From an uncultured Christensenellaceae bacterium (GTDB lineage: Bacteria; Bacillota; Clostridia; Christensenellales; UMGS416): a DNA stretch of 64,000 bases. Each line of letters opens with the position of its first letter. Positions within the stretch are counted from its first letter, which is position 1. The DNA is taken from NCBI GenBank assembly GCA_944376795.1, contig CALWDW010000008.1:1-64000 (forward strand), given 5' to 3'. The translations under genes and the position numbers were made by a program. Shown one piece after another: positions 13,635 through 58,345 of the stretch. The notes beneath the pieces were generated by a model that was not told the DNA's origin, did no database searches, and saw nothing but the letters and a program-made list of their open reading frames with translations.

Positions 13635-16600
13635 ATGAAACGTTCGGCGCTGATCAAGGAGCTGTTCCGGGAGATCTGGCGGTCCAGGAACCGGTTCCTG
13701 TCTATATTGGCCATTATTGCCCTGGGAACAGGGTTCTTTGCCGGGGTGAAGTCGACCGCCCCGGATATGCTGGAGTCGGCCTGGAAGTACTATGACGACT
13801 CTCGGCTGATGGATTTTCGGGCGGTGACCACGCTGGGGATTACCCAGGAGGATCTGGATGCCTTGGCCCAGGTGGGAGATGTCATGCCCGGCTATTCCGT
13901 CACGGTGATGGGCCATGCCGAAGGCGATGATGCCGAGAAGGTCGTCCAGGTGCTGGATCTGGGGGATGGCTCCATGAATGTTCCCGAACTGGTGGAGGGA
14001 CGCCTTCCCCAGGCGCCGGGAGAGTGCGTGGTGGAGAATGGCGCGAATACGCCGGCCTCTTTCCAAGTGGGAGCTACGCTGGTGCTCTCCTCGGGGGATG
14101 AGGACAGTCCGCTTACCGATACGCTGGCCCATACGGAGCTCACGGTGGTGGGTGTGGTGGAATCCCCCCTATATATCTCCATGGAACGGGGATATACCAC
14201 GCTGGGCTCGGGGAAGGTAAACACCTTTATCTTGGTGCTGCCGGAGGAATTCGTGCTGGACGTCTATACGGATGCCTATATCCGTGTCCCGGAGGCCCAG
14301 GGGGTGGACCCTTTCTCGGACGCCTATGAGACGCTGGTCCGGGAGAAGACGGAGGAACTGGAGGCCATCGGCAGTCAGCGCGCGCCGCTGCGCCTGGAAG
14401 AGATCCGGGAGGACGCCCAGGCAGAGCTGGACGACGCCCGGGCGGAGCTGGAAGAGGGGCGCCAGACCCAGGCCCAGGAGTTGGCCGATGCCCGGCAGGA
14501 ACTGGACGAGGGCTGGGCGGAGCTGGAACAGGGCCGGCTGGACGCCCAGGCGGAGCTGGATGACGCCCGGGCCCAGCTGGATGATGGCTGGGACGCCTAC
14601 AACAGCGGTTTGGCCGACTACGAAGCGGGGCGGAAAACCATGGAGGACGGCATTGCCCAGGGCGAAGCCCAGCTGGAGGAGAGCCATGCCCAGCTCACCG
14701 CCCAGGAAGCCGTCTATGCCGAAAACCTGGAGGCCTATGAGGCGGGCCAAGCCGCCTATGACGAGGCCTATCCGGGGACCGTGGCCCAGCTGGAGGCGGC
14801 CCAGGCGCAGACGGACCAAGGCAGTGCAGCCCTGGCCCAGGCGCGGGAGCAGTGGACGGGGGTCCAGACGCTGGCCCAAGGGACGGCCGCCCTGATGGAG
14901 GTGTACCGCACGGCGGCGCTGCCCGGGGAGGCAGCCTCCCCGGCCGTGGTGTCCCAGGCGGCGGCGCTGGATGCCCTACTGACCCAAACCGGCGCCGAAG
15001 CGGTGGGTTTCCCAGAGCTGCTGGAACAGTATATTCGCCTGGATCCTGCCCAGGCCCCGCAGGAGAAGGCAGCGCTGGAACAGGCGCTGGAGACGGCCTT
15101 GGCCGGGGTGCAGGCCATCCTCGATGCCCAGCAGACGCAGCTGGACGCCCAGATGGAAGCCCTGGAGGCGGCCCAGGCGGAGATTGACGCCGGCTATGCC
15201 CAGCTGGAGGAGACCGGCGCCACACTCCAGGAGAGTAAGGCGGCGCTGGATGCCGGACGGGAAGCGCTGGATGCCGGGTGGGCCCAATATGAGGCCGGGG
15301 TGGAAGCCTTGGAGGCCCAGCGGACCCAGGGAGAGACCGAGTTGGCTGATGCCAAGGCAGTGTTGGATGCCAGCTTGGAGGAACTGAACCAGGGAGAGGC
15401 GGATTACGCCCAGGGGAAGGCCGAAGCTGAGGCCGAGCTGGCCGACGCCGAGGCCGAGCTGGAGCAGGGCGAAGCGGACTATGCCCAGGGGAAGGCCGAT
15501 TCGGATGCCGAACTGGCCGATGCCCAGCGGGAGATCGACGAGGGCCAGGCCGATGTGGATGCCCTGGAGGCGCCGGAATGGTATATCTTTGACCGGGACG
15601 ACAACCCCGGTTACAGCGAGTTTGAGACCAACGCCATGCGGGTGGACGCCATTGCCAAGGTTTTCCCGGTGTTCTTCATCATGGTGGCCCTGCTGGTTAG
15701 CCTGACCACCATGACCCGAATGGTGGAGGAGAACCGCACCCAAATCGGCACCATGAAGGCCCTGGGCTACGGCGGCGGCGCCATTGCCTCCAAGTATATC
15801 CTGTATGCCGCCATGGCCAGTGTGCTGGGAACGGTGCTGGGGTTAACAGTGGGCTTCTATCTCTTCCCCACGGTGATCTTTAACGCATATCGGATCATGT
15901 ACCGGATGCCGGGGGTGATGACCCCCTTCCGGTGGGATTATGCCATTGGCTGCGGGCTGACGGCGTGCCTGAGCACCACCGTCGCTGCGCTGATGGCCTG
16001 CGCCGGCGAGCTGCGGGCGGTGCCCGCTACCTCCATGCGGCCCCGTGCCCCCAAGTCGGGGAAGCGGATCTTGCTGGAGCGGGCCGGCGGCCTGTGGAGG
16101 CGGCTTGGATTTATGACCAAGGTTACCGCCCGGAACCTTTTCCGCTATAAGAAACGCCTGCTGATGACCGTGGTGGGCATCTGCGGCTGTACCGCCCTGA
16201 TGCTTACCGGCTATGCTCTGCGGGAGGCCATAACCTCTATTGAGACTCTGCAGTTCGAAGAAATTTTTACCTATGATCTGTTAGGATCTCTGGCGGAGGA
16301 TGCCGATGCCCAGGCCGTTGGGGAACTGCTGGAGGAAAATCCCCGGGTGGCAGACAGCACGCTCCTTTTGAGTCGCAGCTTGGATGTGGAGGCCAACAAC
16401 CAATCCCAGAGCGTAACCCTCTTCGTGCCGCAGAAGGTAGAGGAGATGGACCGGTACATTACGCTGCGGGAGCGGGTGGGTCATGTCCCGCTGACCCTGG
16501 AGGATGACGGGGTCATCATCACCGAGAAATTGTCCCGGCTGCTGGATCTGCAGGTGGGGGATACGGTTTTCCTCCGGGAGGAACTGGAGGGCCGGGAAGC

Positions 16601-17231
16601 CGTGGTGCTGGGGGTGACGGAGAACTACGTGAATAACTATGTGTACATGACCCCTGCGCTCTATGCCAGCCTCTGGGGGGAGGAGCCCCCTTACAATACC
16701 TTTGCGGCCAATATGGACAGCCCGGATTCTCGGGAGGCGCTGGCTTCCGATCTGCTGGAGGTGGAGGATATCCAGGGGCTCAGCTTCAGTTCCGATATTG
16801 CCTCCAGTTTCCGGGACGCCATGAAGAGCCTGGACCTGATTGTGCTGGTGATCATTGTGACCGCCGGTGCGTTGGCCTTCATTGTGCTCTACAACCTGAC
16901 CAATATCAATGTGGGGGAGCGGGTGCGCGAACTGGCCACTGTCAAGGTGCTGGGCTTCTATGACGGAGAAACCGCCGCCTATATCTACCGGGAGAATATC
17001 GCCGCCACTTGTATGGGCATTGCCCTGGGCCTGGTGGGAGGGATTTTCCTCAGCCGGTTTGTCATCCATACGGCAGAGCTGGATACCGTGATGTTCGCCC
17101 AGACCATCTCCCTCTCCTCGTATCTGGCGGCGGCGGCGCTGACGCTGGCCTTTACCCTGGTGGTCAATGTGGCGCTCTATTTCCGGCTCAAGCGGCTGGA
17201 TATGGTGGAATCCCTCAAAGGCGTAGAATAG
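13635..17231 (+). CDS. FtsX-family ABC permease with very long extracellular coiled coil
   Basis: 1198 aa. Residues about 20-40 are the first membrane helix ([19 protein letters not shown]). A MacB-type ectodomain follows, then about 400 residues (about 240-640) of extracellular alpha-helical repeats rich in A, E, Q and D, with recurring units such as [13 protein letters not shown] and EADYAQGKA. Two FtsX membrane blocks follow (about 670-790 and 1070-1195) with a second ectodomain between. This matches large clostridial permeases whose coiled coils reach into the cell wall. The ATPase upstream energises it. Substrate unknown. The palindrome cluster after its stop supplies a terminator at 17429-17471. 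Confidence 0.92.
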
Positions 17232-17342
17232 CGGCTTTTGCGGGGAGGCGATTCCTGCGGAGGAGATTTTTCGCGGGGGAGGGAAACCTTTTGCAAAAGG
17301 GCCTTCTCCCCCAAGGGAATACGGAGGTACGGCGGTCTCTGC

Positions 17343-17473
17343 GGGGGAGGGAAACCTTTTGTAAAAGGTTTCCCTCCCCCGGACCCCTGCCTTTCAAAAA
17401 TTTTTAGGAGAGGGTGGGGAGAGTAGAAGGGGAACGGTAGCAATCCGAATGCAGCCGTTCCCCTATTTTTTTG
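17343..17473 (+). repeat. Repeat unit B with complete palindrome and terminator hairpin
   Basis: Palindrome 17343-17380 has 18-bp perfect arms. The hairpin 17429-17463 ends in TATTTTTTT. Confidence 0.8.
17429..17471 (+). terminator. Terminator after the FtsX operon (within repeat unit B)
   Basis: Stem GGGGAACGG (17429-17437) with CCGTTCCCC (17455-17463) and a T-rich tail. It is about 200 bases past the operon stop. Confidence 0.75.
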
Positions 17474-17663
17474 TAATTTACAAAACGCGGCGGCGTGTAC
17501 GGCACGTTTTGCCCGATGAGGGGTGGCAAGCGCAGCGCAGCCACTGCGGGGTGCGGGGGCCGCGAAAGGCTCCCGCCCTTTGTAATCAAGGTCGCGGAAA
17601 GCCTGCTTTCCGCGATAAGCCCCCGCAGGAATCTGTGAGGATTCCGAGGAGGCGAGAGTTTGC

Positions 17664-17797
17664 GGGGGAGGGAAACCTTTTGCAAAAGGTTTCCCTCCCC
17701 CGCGCCCCCACCTTTCTAAAACTTTTAGGGGAGAAGGTTAGGGAGAGTAGAAGGGGAACAGCTGAAATCAGGATGCAGCCGTTCCTCTATTTTTCGT
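17664..17797 (+). repeat. Repeat unit C
   Basis: Palindrome 17664-17701, spacer, and hairpin 17753-17787 followed by TATTTTT; arms slightly diverged from unit B. Confidence 0.8.
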
Positions 17798-17800
17798 AAT

Positions 17801-18000
17801 GGAGCGGATCAAAGGCGAAGCCGCTCCAAGGTTTTCGCCCGCCTTTTGCAAAAGGCGGCGGGGTCGAGGGGCAGCGCCCCCGTCGTCCTCCGCAGAGGAC
17901 GAAATCCTCCTGCCCCGCAAAGCGCAGGAGAGGCGTCCAGCGTCCTGGAGGACGCTGGACGGCGGGGAACCCTCGCCGGGGGTTCCCCGGGGGAAGCGTG
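17801..18000. repeat. Run of unrelated hairpins between repeat units C and D
   Basis: Successive dyads: GGAGCGG/CCGCTCC (17801-17827), CCGCCTTTT/AAAAGGCGG (about 17840-17859), GGGGC/GCCCC, GTCCTC/GAGGAC, GCGTCCAGCGTCC/GGACGCTGGACG, and GGGGAACC/GGTTCCCC. Similar chains occur downstream of genes in related Clostridia as I recall; their role is unknown. Confidence 0.7.
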
Positions 18001-18026
18001 GAGAGCTTGTGGAGGCGGGATTTGGC

Positions 18027-18158
18027 GGGGGAGGGGAACCTTTTGAGAAAGGTTCCCCTCCCCCGCGCCCCCACCCTTCTAAAACTTTTTGGGGGATGGT
18101 TGGGAGTGTGTGAAGGGGAACGGCTGCAAGAAGAGCACAGTCGTTCACTCGCTTTTTT
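18027..18158 (+). repeat. Repeat unit D
   Basis: Palindrome 18027-18064; the terminal hairpin (about 18115-18150) has decayed arms but keeps a TTTTTT tail. Confidence 0.75.
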
Positions 18159-18197
18159 CCGGCAGTCCTTTCCCCTAAGGTTTTGGGGGAAAGGGGT

Positions 18198-18239
18198 TTG
18201 GGGGAGAGGGCCCTTTTGCAAAAGGGCCCTCTCCCCCAA
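18198..18239. repeat. Perfect 42-bp palindrome
   Basis: The left half 18198-18218 is the exact complement of 18219-18239, centred on GC; a near copy lies at 18440-18481. Confidence 0.9.
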
Positions 18240-18270
18240 GAGATGAGGATTCCGAGGAGGCGAAGTATGC

Positions 18271-18400
18271 GGGGGAAGGGAACCTTTTGAAAAAGGTTCC
18301 CCTCCCCCGGGCCCCCACCCTTCTAAAACTTTTAGGGGGAAGGATGGAGGAAGTGAAAAGGGAACGGCTGGAAGAAGAATACAGCCGTTCCCCAGATTTT
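18271..18400 (+). repeat. Repeat unit E
   Basis: Palindrome 18271-18308 and hairpin 18360-18392 followed by a short T-run. Confidence 0.8.
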
Positions 18401-18709
18401 CCCAGCTGTCCCTTCCCCAAGGTTTTGGGGGAAAGGGGTTTGGGGGAGGGGGCCCTTTTGCAAAAGGGCCTTCTCCCCCAAGAGCTGCGGATTCTGAGGA
18501 GGCGGGGAATGCGAATCGGAAAAATCTGCAGAGTTCACAATTATTCCGCTGAAAGTGTGGTATACTTTTTTATGAAAAAATATGCGGAGCTGGTGTTCCC
18601 TTCGCGGAGCTGGCGCTTTCCAGGGCCGAAGCGGTTGACGGGGTCCGCTTTGCCGTGGTATAGTGTTAAGGCGCGTGCCTGTCTAAAGGCAGCGGTAAGG
18701 AGGCCTCAC

Positions 18710-20575
18710 GTGCTGAAAGAGAAACTGTCTAAACTGCTTCCCCTGGTGCAGAAACCCGCCCGGTATACCGGAGGCGAGATCCACGCGGCCATGAAGGACC
18801 CGGCGAAGGTATCCGTCCGCTATGCCTTTGCCTTCCCGGATGTCTATGAGGTGGGCATGAGCCACTTGGGCCTGCGGATTCTCTATGAAGCACTGAATCG
18901 GCTGGATTTCCTGTGGTGCGAGCGGGTCTTTGCTCCGTGGGGTGATATGGAGGCGCTGCTGCGGCAGGAGGGGCTGCCTTTGGCTACGCTGGAGAGCGCG
19001 ACGCCCCTGCGGGATATGGATGTCATCGGCTTTACGCTGCAGTACGAGATGAGCTATACCAATTTGCTCAATATACTGGATTTGGGCGGGCTGCCTCTGC
19101 GCAGCTGCGACCGGGGAGAGGATATGCCCCTGGTGATGGCCGGCGGTCCCTGCGCCTACCACCCTGAGCCCTTGGCGCCCTTCATCGACCTGTTTTTTAT
19201 GGGAGAGGCGGAGGAGGCGCTCCCCGCGCTGATGGAACGCTACAGGCAGGCCAAGGCCCAGGGAGCCACCAAAGAGGAGTTCCTGCTGCAGGCGGCTTCC
19301 CTTCCGGGCTGGTATGTTCCGGCTTTCTATGACGCCGTATACAAGGAGGACGGCACGCTACAGGCCACCGTTCCCAATCGTCCCGGCGTTCCCGAGCGGA
19401 TTACCAAGCAGATCGTGCGGGACTTTGAGCATTCGGTGTGGCCGATGAGCCCCATGGTTCCCTACCTGGAGGTGGTGCATGACCGGATCACCCTGGAGCT
19501 TTTCCGGGGCTGCACCCGGGGCTGCCGCTTCTGCCAGGCGGGGATGATCTACCGTCCGGTGCGGGAGCGCTCGGTGGAGACGCTGCTGGCCCAGGCCCTG
19601 GAGAACATGCGGGCCACCGGCTATGACGAGATCTCCCTCACCAGCTTGAGCACCGGAGACTATAGCGCCCTGACCCAGCTGATCGGCGCCCTGAGCCGGG
19701 AGACCAAGGATTGCCATACCATTCTTTCTTTGCCTTCCCTGCGCATTGACGCCTATGCCAAGGATTACATGGAGGGCGTGGACAACGACCGCAAGGCGGG
19801 GCTGACGCTGGCTCCCGAGGCCGGCACCCAAAGAATGCGGGACGTCATCAATAAAAACGTCACCGAGAATGACCTGATGGCTTCGGTGGAGGACGCCTTC
19901 CGCAACGGCTGGGATCGGGTGAAGTTTTACTTCATGCTGGGACTGCCTACGGAGACCGACGAGGATGTGGAGGGAATTGCCGACCTGGCAGGGAAGGTGA
20001 CGCGCCTCTACCGGAGGATCCCACGGGAGGTGCGCAGTAAGCGCCGGCTGACGGTCACGGTGAGCACTTCCAACTTTGTTCCCAAGCCCTTTACCCCCTT
20101 CCAGTGGTGCCCCCAGGATACCCTGGAGAACTTGGGCCGCAAGCAAGGCATCCTGCGGCGGGCGCTGAAGCCCCTGGGCGTCTCCTATAACTGGCATGAG
20201 TCCAGCGTCTCCCGGCTGGAGGCTCTGGTGGCCAGGGGAGACCGCCGGGTGGCCGATGTGCTGGAGGCCGCCTTCCGCAAGGGCTGCCGCTTTGACGGAT
20301 GGAATGATCTCTTCCGCCTCTCCCTTTGGGAGGAGGCCATCGCCGAATGCGGGATTGACCCGGATTTCTATATCAACCGTCCCCGTTCCCGGGAGGAGAC
20401 GCTTCCCTGGGACCATATTGACGTGGGGGTGAGCAAGGAATTCCTGTGGCAGGAGTACCAAAAGGCCCTGCGCGGGGAGACCACGCCCGACTGCCGCGGG
20501 GCTTGCCAGCGCTGCGGCATGGCGGGTACGCTTTGTAAGGGAGGGCCCAGCTATGCGGGTGATCTTTCGGTTTGA
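18710..20575 (+). CDS. Radical SAM protein, TIGR03960 type
   Basis: 621 aa from GTG at 18710 behind TAAGGAGG; the open frame continues further upstream only into repeats. An N-terminal B12-binding-like region (YAFAFPDVYEVGMSHLGLRI) is followed by the radical SAM centre with the cluster motif CTRGCRFCQAG, so it should bind a 4Fe-4S cluster and SAM. The C-terminus holds CRGACQRCGM. The family is nearly always followed by a DUF2344 protein and RNase G, exactly as here; its reaction is unproven. It overlaps the next gene by 23 bases. Confidence 0.93.
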   Translation: MLKEKLSKLLPLVQKPARYTGGEIHAAMKDPAKVSVRYAFAFPDVYEVGMSHLGLRILYEALNRLDFLWCERVFAPWGDMEALLRQEGLPLATLESATPLRDMDVIGFTLQYEMSYTNLLNILDLGGLPLRSCDRGEDMPLVMAGGPCAYHPEPLAPFIDLFFMGEAEEALPALMERYRQAKAQGATKEEFLLQAASLPGWYVPAFYDAVYKEDGTLQATVPNRPGVPERITKQIVRDFEHSVWPMSPMVPYLEVVHDRITLELFRGCTRGCRFCQAGMIYRPVRERSVETLLAQALENMRATGYDEISLTSLSTGDYSALTQLIGALSRETKDCHTILSLPSLRIDAYAKDYMEGVDNDRKAGLTLAPEAGTQRMRDVINKNVTENDLMASVEDAFRNGWDRVKFYFMLGLPTETDEDVEGIADLAGKVTRLYRRIPREVRSKRRLTVTVSTSNFVPKPFTPFQWCPQDTLENLGRKQGILRRALKPLGVSYNWHESSVSRLEALVARGDRRVADVLEAAFRKGCRFDGWNDLFRLSLWEEAIAECGIDPDFYINRPRSREETLPWDHIDVGVSKEFLWQEYQKALRGETTPDCRGACQRCGMAGTLCKGGPSYAGDLSV

Positions 20576-58093: not shown

Positions 58094-58142
58094 GCATATT
58101 GGCCGCGCTTGGGGCCCTCTGATGCGGCGGCTGCGCGGCTCT

Positions 58143-58187
58143 TTGGGGGAGGGAAACCTTTTGGGAGGGTTTCCCTCCCCCAAACCC
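58143..58187. repeat. Distant copy of the GGGGGAGGGAAACC palindrome
   Basis: The element found in 17275-18308 recurs here as one palindrome (arms of about 18 bp with loop TTTTGGGA). It is about 40 kb from the cluster. Confidence 0.8.
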
Positions 58188-58297
58188 TTTTCTTGTGAAA
58201 GCTGGAGCACGGGCCTTTTGCCCGGAGGTTTTTTCCGCAGCCTAGGACCCCCAAGGGGGTTCCCCGGGCGCTGCGGAGGGGCTGGGCAGACATACGA

Positions 58298-58345
58298 GAC
58301 GCTGCGCAGAGCGCCTTATCAGGCGGCTCTGCGCAGCGTCTTTCT
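58298..58345 (+). terminator. Long hairpin terminator after GH31
   Basis: Arms AGACGCTGCGCAGAGC (58298-58313) and its complement form about 20 bp with one bulge; TTTCTGCTCTC follows. Confidence 0.85.

Follow-up and report, generated by a model that had tools for sequence, protein, structure and literature searches.

A genome-wide, modular family of fold-back repeats in one orientation at the 3' ends of genes, with a layout related to dispersed elements in other Clostridia

Several classes of intergenic repeats are related to the elements described here. REPs owe their mobility to Y1 transposases (RAYTs) and form mosaic clusters (PMC2817692). They are extragenic, present in high copy number and located 3' of genes, between convergent or tandem ORFs, and GTAG and CGTC tags define their super-families; the CGTC REPs are palindromic repeats that have no dedicated transposase (PMC3733652). 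Pneumococcal BOX elements are modular composites with a fixed first module and variable later ones, and SPRITE elements are dispersed and have the shape of an intrinsic terminator (PMC3049150). Searches of open-licence papers returned these related classes and no description of the family reported here, designated PAL-MID. It resembles familiar bacterial palindromic repeats but is laid out differently, and no enzyme is known to move it.

The window (the whole 64-kb stretch of DNA that was analysed) contains an array of four units of approximately 130 bp with interleaved modules, spanning positions 17272-18484. Each unit is composed of a palindrome (PAL), a linker (MID), a hairpin (HP) and a T-run. 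PAL-MID-HP was named module A; the module behind it is of one of three types, B1 (approximately 185 bp), B2 (approximately 225 bp) or B3 (approximately 80 bp). The order in the window is A-B1-A-B2-A-B3-A-B3. The first-pass annotation of this DNA had described four units of palindrome, hairpin and T-run, all of which were present, and had overlooked the modules between them, including the relation of B3 to PAL-MID. The features are as follows.

13635-17231, + strand: upstream gene, FtsX/MacB-like ABC permease
17272-17312, + strand: hybrid palindrome, the first of the cluster, its left arm that of PAL and its right arm that of PAL2, 41 nt past the stop of the upstream gene (repeat analysis, covariance-model (CM) matches)
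17341-17470, + strand: unit 1, module A (PAL 17341-17381, MID 17382-17428, HP 17429-17463, then the T-run)
17471-17655, + strand: module B1 after unit 1, with the F motif (17636-17654) at its end
17662-17794, + strand: unit 2, module A (perfect 42-bp PAL at 17662-17703, MID, HP with mismatches, T-run)
17796-18020, + strand: module B2 after unit 2 (repeat comparison)
18025-18156, + strand: unit 3, module A (PAL arms compensated, GGGGAACC/GGTTCCCC; weaker T-run)
18157-18239, + strand: module B3 of unit 3, MID' plus a perfect 42-bp PAL2 (18198-18239), a diverged reverse complement of PAL-MID
18244-18262, 17636-17654 and 18486-18504, + strand: F motif TGAGGATTCCGAGGAGGCG, between units (repeat family D5)
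18269-18400, + strand: unit 4, module A (repeat analysis, folding, T-run scoring)
18401-18481, + strand: module B3 of unit 4 (PAL2 at 18440-18481, whose sense strand contains G-U pairs)
18710-20575, + strand: downstream gene, radical SAM protein (Radical_SAM_N2)
58142-58203, + strand: lone degenerate PAL-MID copy, between convergent genes

As annotated before, the cluster is free of genes: gene calling gave no credible candidate from 17231 to 18710. No match to Rfam above the gathering score was obtained in the window, and the array thus corresponds to no known RNA family. Two of the four units start exactly with GGGGGAGGGAAACC, the remaining two with GGGGGAGGGGAACC and GGGGGAAGGGAACC. PAL is a palindrome of 40-42 bp, preceded by TTTGC or TTCTGC and followed by CGSGCCCCCACC; the MID linker carries the motif CCCCCACCYTTCTAAAACTTTT, and the HP arms of the window units are GGGGAACGGCTG...CAGCCGTTCCCC. 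Besides the four unit PALs, related palindromes were found at 17275-17312 (hybrid arms), 18198-18239 and 18440-18481. One palindrome perfect over 42 bp had been reported previously; there are actually two (17662-17703 and 18198-18239), and the next longest in the window measures 22 bp. With up to three mismatches, half of PAL (GGGGGAGGGNNACCTTTTG) was found 15 times, approximately thirty-fold above the expected 0.48, and shuffled sequences yielded at most 2 matches, which excludes a chance origin. Units 1 and 2 have good T-runs, units 3 and 4 weaker ones. The lone copy at 58142-58203 is flanked by genes for a GH31 glycosidase and a metallophosphatase, and a separate strong terminator-like hairpin (58297-58345) is present nearby.

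The window cluster is one site of a dispersed repeat family that extends over the entire genome carrying it (G000, from an uncultured gut-type bacterium; 2.68 Mb, 95% complete). Unit 2 used as a query recovered approximately 65 places in approximately 32 clusters. The MID motif had 102 exact matches in the 2.68 Mb, versus 0 for the reversed control, and a PAL-MID covariance model (R1) gave at least 150 matches. Complete PAL-MID-HP units numbered 74 in the 47 loci examined. Module B1 had 18 further matches in this genome at 87-96% identity, and module B2 approximately 13 further full or partial copies, most of them 89-97% identical; neither was found in 60 relatives. Copy number is underestimated by these counts, because many contigs end at the repeats.

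The objection considered in the first-pass annotation, that the repeats are absent elsewhere and result from misassembly, was refuted by the genome-wide searches, which returned dozens of loci with distinct flanking genes. Mis-joining of repeats in a metagenome bin is hardly credible as an explanation of the arrays. It would fit the many contigs that end in or near repeats and the two contigs (C44 and C45) that begin with the same stretch, but the window array lies well within one contig of 194 kb, many positions distinguish its four units, and independent genomes share the motif. In C44 and C45 (loci L146 and L147) the first 127 bases are identical, an assembly-graph overlap inside a repeat unit.

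The modules follow a simple grammar. B3 corresponds to PAL-MID in reverse-complement, diverged form, with 61-nt arms that are 70% complementary, so that A-B3 forms a fold-back element of approximately 213 bp. Genome-wide, the spacing from one A module to the next fell into three classes of 233-244, 309-324 and 360-366 bp (approximately 240, 320 and 363 bp), matching the lengths expected for A-B3, A-B1 and A-B2, with three exceptions (393, 494 and 498 bp). Neighbouring A modules had the same orientation in 24 of 24 pairs (head to tail); each of the two 'opposite' pairs recorded at 81-85 bp consists of both arms of one A-B3 element. Terminal inverted repeats as in MITEs (short non-coding elements) are present in A-B3 and absent from A-B1 and A-B2. 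The first nine bases of the T-run contain on average approximately 7 T in the B1 and B2 types and 5 in the B3 types; T-run strength follows the module type (strong for B1/B2, weak for B3), not the position behind a gene. The HP loop was inverted (ACTCTTCTT versus the usual AAGAAGAGT) at L127:2336, L138:6757, L231 and L236, which suggests hairpin template-switching or recombination between inverted copies.

Identity between A modules averaged 83% and was equal within a locus (0.839) and between loci (0.833). The units are therefore not simple local duplicates, and recent tandem duplication was ruled out, with the exception of one 96% pair in locus L137. Equal identity could also come from gene conversion. 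The dispersed family is probably mobile.

For 30 arrays both neighbouring genes were called: the genes were convergent in 18 cases, tandem in 11 and called divergent in one (L144). In L144 a TIGR01440-family gene was confirmed on the minus strand, which makes this gene pair tandem, not divergent. Background gene pairs with gaps of at least 80 bp were convergent in 9 cases, tandem in 31 and divergent in 25, and the arrays thus showed an excess of convergent (Fisher test, p=1.2e-5) and a deficit of divergent locations (p=1.7e-4). The distance from an array to the nearest stop codon had a median of 33 nt (quartiles 17-52). The array ran in the same direction as the genes in 5 tandem pairs and in the opposite direction in 6, or 6 versus 6 after correction of L144. 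A strict sense orientation behind genes, an early impression, failed once the tandem gene pairs were taken separately. Since orientation is free in tandem pairs, the placement rule concerns the 3' end and not the strand. This parity also counts against a pure terminator role, which does not predict it. The genes flanking the arrays have unrelated functions.

PAL, PAL2 and HP are all strong predicted hairpins, those of PAL reaching -35 to -40 kcal/mol with z about -7 to -8. The predicted fold of A-B3 (-134 to -140 kcal/mol) consists of PAL, a MID:MID' stem tipped by HP, and PAL2, and a consensus fold over 29 A-B3 copies had the same architecture. Pairing in A1 was modestly higher than in shuffles (95.9% versus 95.1%; reached by 0 of 500), and its covariation score was reached by 2 of 500. 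HP with its T-run has the GC-rich stem and U-run of an intrinsic (Rho-independent) terminator and is a predicted terminator; a simple terminator scan missed it because its loop is longer than the 8-nt limit of the scan. In several units HP or the T-run has decayed.

More informative than these shuffle controls was a strand comparison: on the sense strand of HP, 74 G-U cells were counted versus 36 A-C cells, corresponding to approximately 40 versus 16 inferred origins (p=0.002); these origin counts are approximate, being based on parsimony over short recombining repeats and weakened by shared ancestry and recombination. The MID:MID' stem contains approximately five near-fixed G-U pairs and zero fixed A-C. 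In PAL this bias was reversed (8 G-U versus 19 A-C cells), and two-sided changes at 5 of its 18 pairs preserve the palindrome without strand preference. As the wobble bias of PAL is opposite to that of HP, PAL may be maintained as DNA. The sequence pattern supports pairing of HP and the MID stem as sense RNA, with a putative role as terminator or 3'-end hairpin. The first-pass annotation had proposed a transcription block behind the FtsX operon. The idea is plausible, since HP resembles the hairpin of an intrinsic terminator and its pairing is seemingly preserved on the sense strand. Such a block would not be peculiar to the FtsX operon, and among the arrays in tandem pairs half are antisense.

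Tight placement near stop codons, a stable conserved fold and the G-U bias could all be explained by a selected regulatory or structured-RNA module at 3' ends, i.e. terminator or stabiliser cassettes spread mainly by gene conversion and not by transposition. The redundant tandem copies, the antisense copies in tandem pairs, the unrelated functions of the flanking genes and the lack of the repeat in all seven genomes of the same family make this explanation distinctly improbable. A more serious possibility, though one that we doubt, is selfish or inert fold-back DNA without an RNA function, which would grow by template-switching and homologous recombination and survive where it is harmless, 3' of genes. 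Avoidance of divergent regions alone would account for the location; sense/antisense parity, the decay of HP or T-runs and the inverted HP loops, as a mark of template-switching or inverted-copy recombination, all agree with it. It does not account for sense-strand pairing kept through G-U in HP and in the MID:MID' stem, and these pairs cannot be put down to a general mutational strand bias either, because PAL shows the reverse.

The Y1_Tnp domain (PF01797) had no match in the genome carrying the window or in six other carriers (G047, G020, G072, G049, G128 and G536), whereas E. coli and other controls were positive; carrier G090 had one partial match only. Since the genome carrying the window is 95% complete, absence of the enzyme is likely, not certain. 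A search for IS91-type Y2 enzymes was uninformative, as its controls were silent. The foot of PAL had neither a GTAG nor a CGTC tag; in some copies only, a non-conserved GTAG precedes HP by two bases. RAYT mobilisation was rejected on the PF01797 result, and we consider it very unlikely that the repeats are a true REP/BIME family whose Y1 RAYT is missing from the assembly or lost. The family does share with REP/BIME elements a high copy number, extragenic palindromes (with some compensatory changes), mosaic clusters (PMC2817692), a location 3' of genes between convergent or tandem ORFs (PMC3733652) and a patchy distribution between genomes. It differs in its head-to-tail instead of alternating units (although PAL2 in B3 is an inverted PAL), its near-perfect 42-bp palindromes, its embedded terminator-like hairpin and its three interchangeable long modules, as well as in the missing RAYT and tag. 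With CGTC REPs it has in common that it is palindromic and that no dedicated transposase was found, but it has no CGTC tag and its composite units are much longer. In layout, and with no sequence relation expected, the elements are modular like BOX, with a fixed first and variable later modules, and carry a terminator-like hairpin like SPRITE, but palindrome, hairpin and modules are joined in one element.

PAL-MID (E<=0.001) was detected in 24 of 200 genomes of the order, patchily spread over many families (0 of 7 genomes of the same family). High-copy carriers in the order have genome-specific arms: G047 (at least 150 copies), G090 (148), G072 (140), G020 (131) and G128 (68). At the phylum level 3 of 398 genomes matched, one of which is the genome carrying the window, and among named genomes 1 of 40 had a match, a weak one. 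G536, a genome from the same class but a different order, contains nine dispersed copies of an element of approximately 225 bp with the layout PAL-MID-stem-MID'-PAL: a palindrome, a MID-like CCCCCTCACTAAAACTT, a stem TTTTTGGCGAGGGGTAATT...AATTACCCCTCGCCAAAAA, a MID'-like part and a palindrome. The surroundings of the copies differ, apart from outer inverted ends common to several, for which reason the element looks MITE-like; no clear target duplication was legible in the aligned copies. The radical SAM protein of the window is 66% identical to its counterpart in Ca. Parachristensenella avicola (L044), the closest relative with a name; there, the genes upstream of the radical SAM gene are different, which made this locus invalid as an orthologous empty site. 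A-B3 and the G536 element resemble MITEs and Correia-type elements in being short and non-coding with terminal inverted repeats, but each arm of a PAL-MID element is itself a palindrome, and neither a target duplication nor a parent transposon was identified; no autonomous copy was noticed in the loci examined.

The suggestion in the first-pass annotation of REP-like sites or miniature mobile elements is consistent with copy number, 3'-end location and fold-back layout, but is weakened by the lack of a REP transposase, the head-to-tail order and movement that is indirectly deduced. Given the negative outcome for RAYT, tag and alternation, the family does not belong among the RAYT-REPs; in its workings it is comparable to REP/BIME or MITE elements, combined with a modularity as in BOX and a terminator hairpin as in SPRITE.

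The explanation we favour, with moderate confidence, is that the window cluster is an array of a dispersed, non-autonomous fold-back family (module A plus B1, B2 or B3) that was mobilised in trans and accumulated head to tail behind stop codons, its sense hairpins terminating transcription. The ancestral PAL-MID...MID'-PAL element was presumably moved in trans by some enzyme other than a RAYT that could be detected here. Every element would start with module A (PAL-MID-HP) and end with B1, B2 or B3, giving three lengths, and arrays probably grew by copying or insertion beside existing elements and by recombination that reshuffled them via shared modules. When transcribed in sense, the elements would form stable hairpins, and HP with its U-tract should halt RNA polymerase, leaving a hairpin-protected 3' end. 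Behind genes, insertions would thus do no harm or even be of use, and in promoters they would be costly. For the PAL-MID family we infer mobility, a mobilising enzyme and transcription termination; against the favoured explanation, neither an empty site nor a target duplication was shown and the enzyme was not found. It seems unlikely that the repeats form a class of their own in gut Clostridia, not described before, of transposable fold-back elements or structured 3'-UTR RNAs, with PAL-MID as its signature, Y1-independent addition of new elements in one orientation beside existing ones, and delivery of a terminator to the gene ahead. If the favoured explanation is true, this order harbours a large repeat family that shapes many 3' gene ends, interrupts metagenome assemblies and spreads in the absence of the enzyme by which REPs are explained elsewhere. 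The one-way arrays of three lengths would also be a testable model for the growth of mosaic intergenic repeats, a question still open for the CGTC-type REPs without a dedicated transposase.

A phage origin was rejected, as the MID pattern in viral contigs amounted to three chance matches without palindromes. A further array type in the genome carrying the window consists of PAL-MID without the standard HP, spaced approximately 135 bp or approximately 84-120 bp (L224, G000:C8:68700-73200; L225, G000:C21:4200-8600). In G047 (L187, L193, L195) a second common repeat, CGCCCCACCCCTACCCCTCCCACGGAGGGGAATT, occurs beside PAL-MID and is apparently another intergenic palindrome family, and in G090 (L205, L212, L213) a further dispersed repeat, GTCATTGCGAGGAGCGCGAA...GCGCGACGCGGCAATC, is located near PAL-MID.
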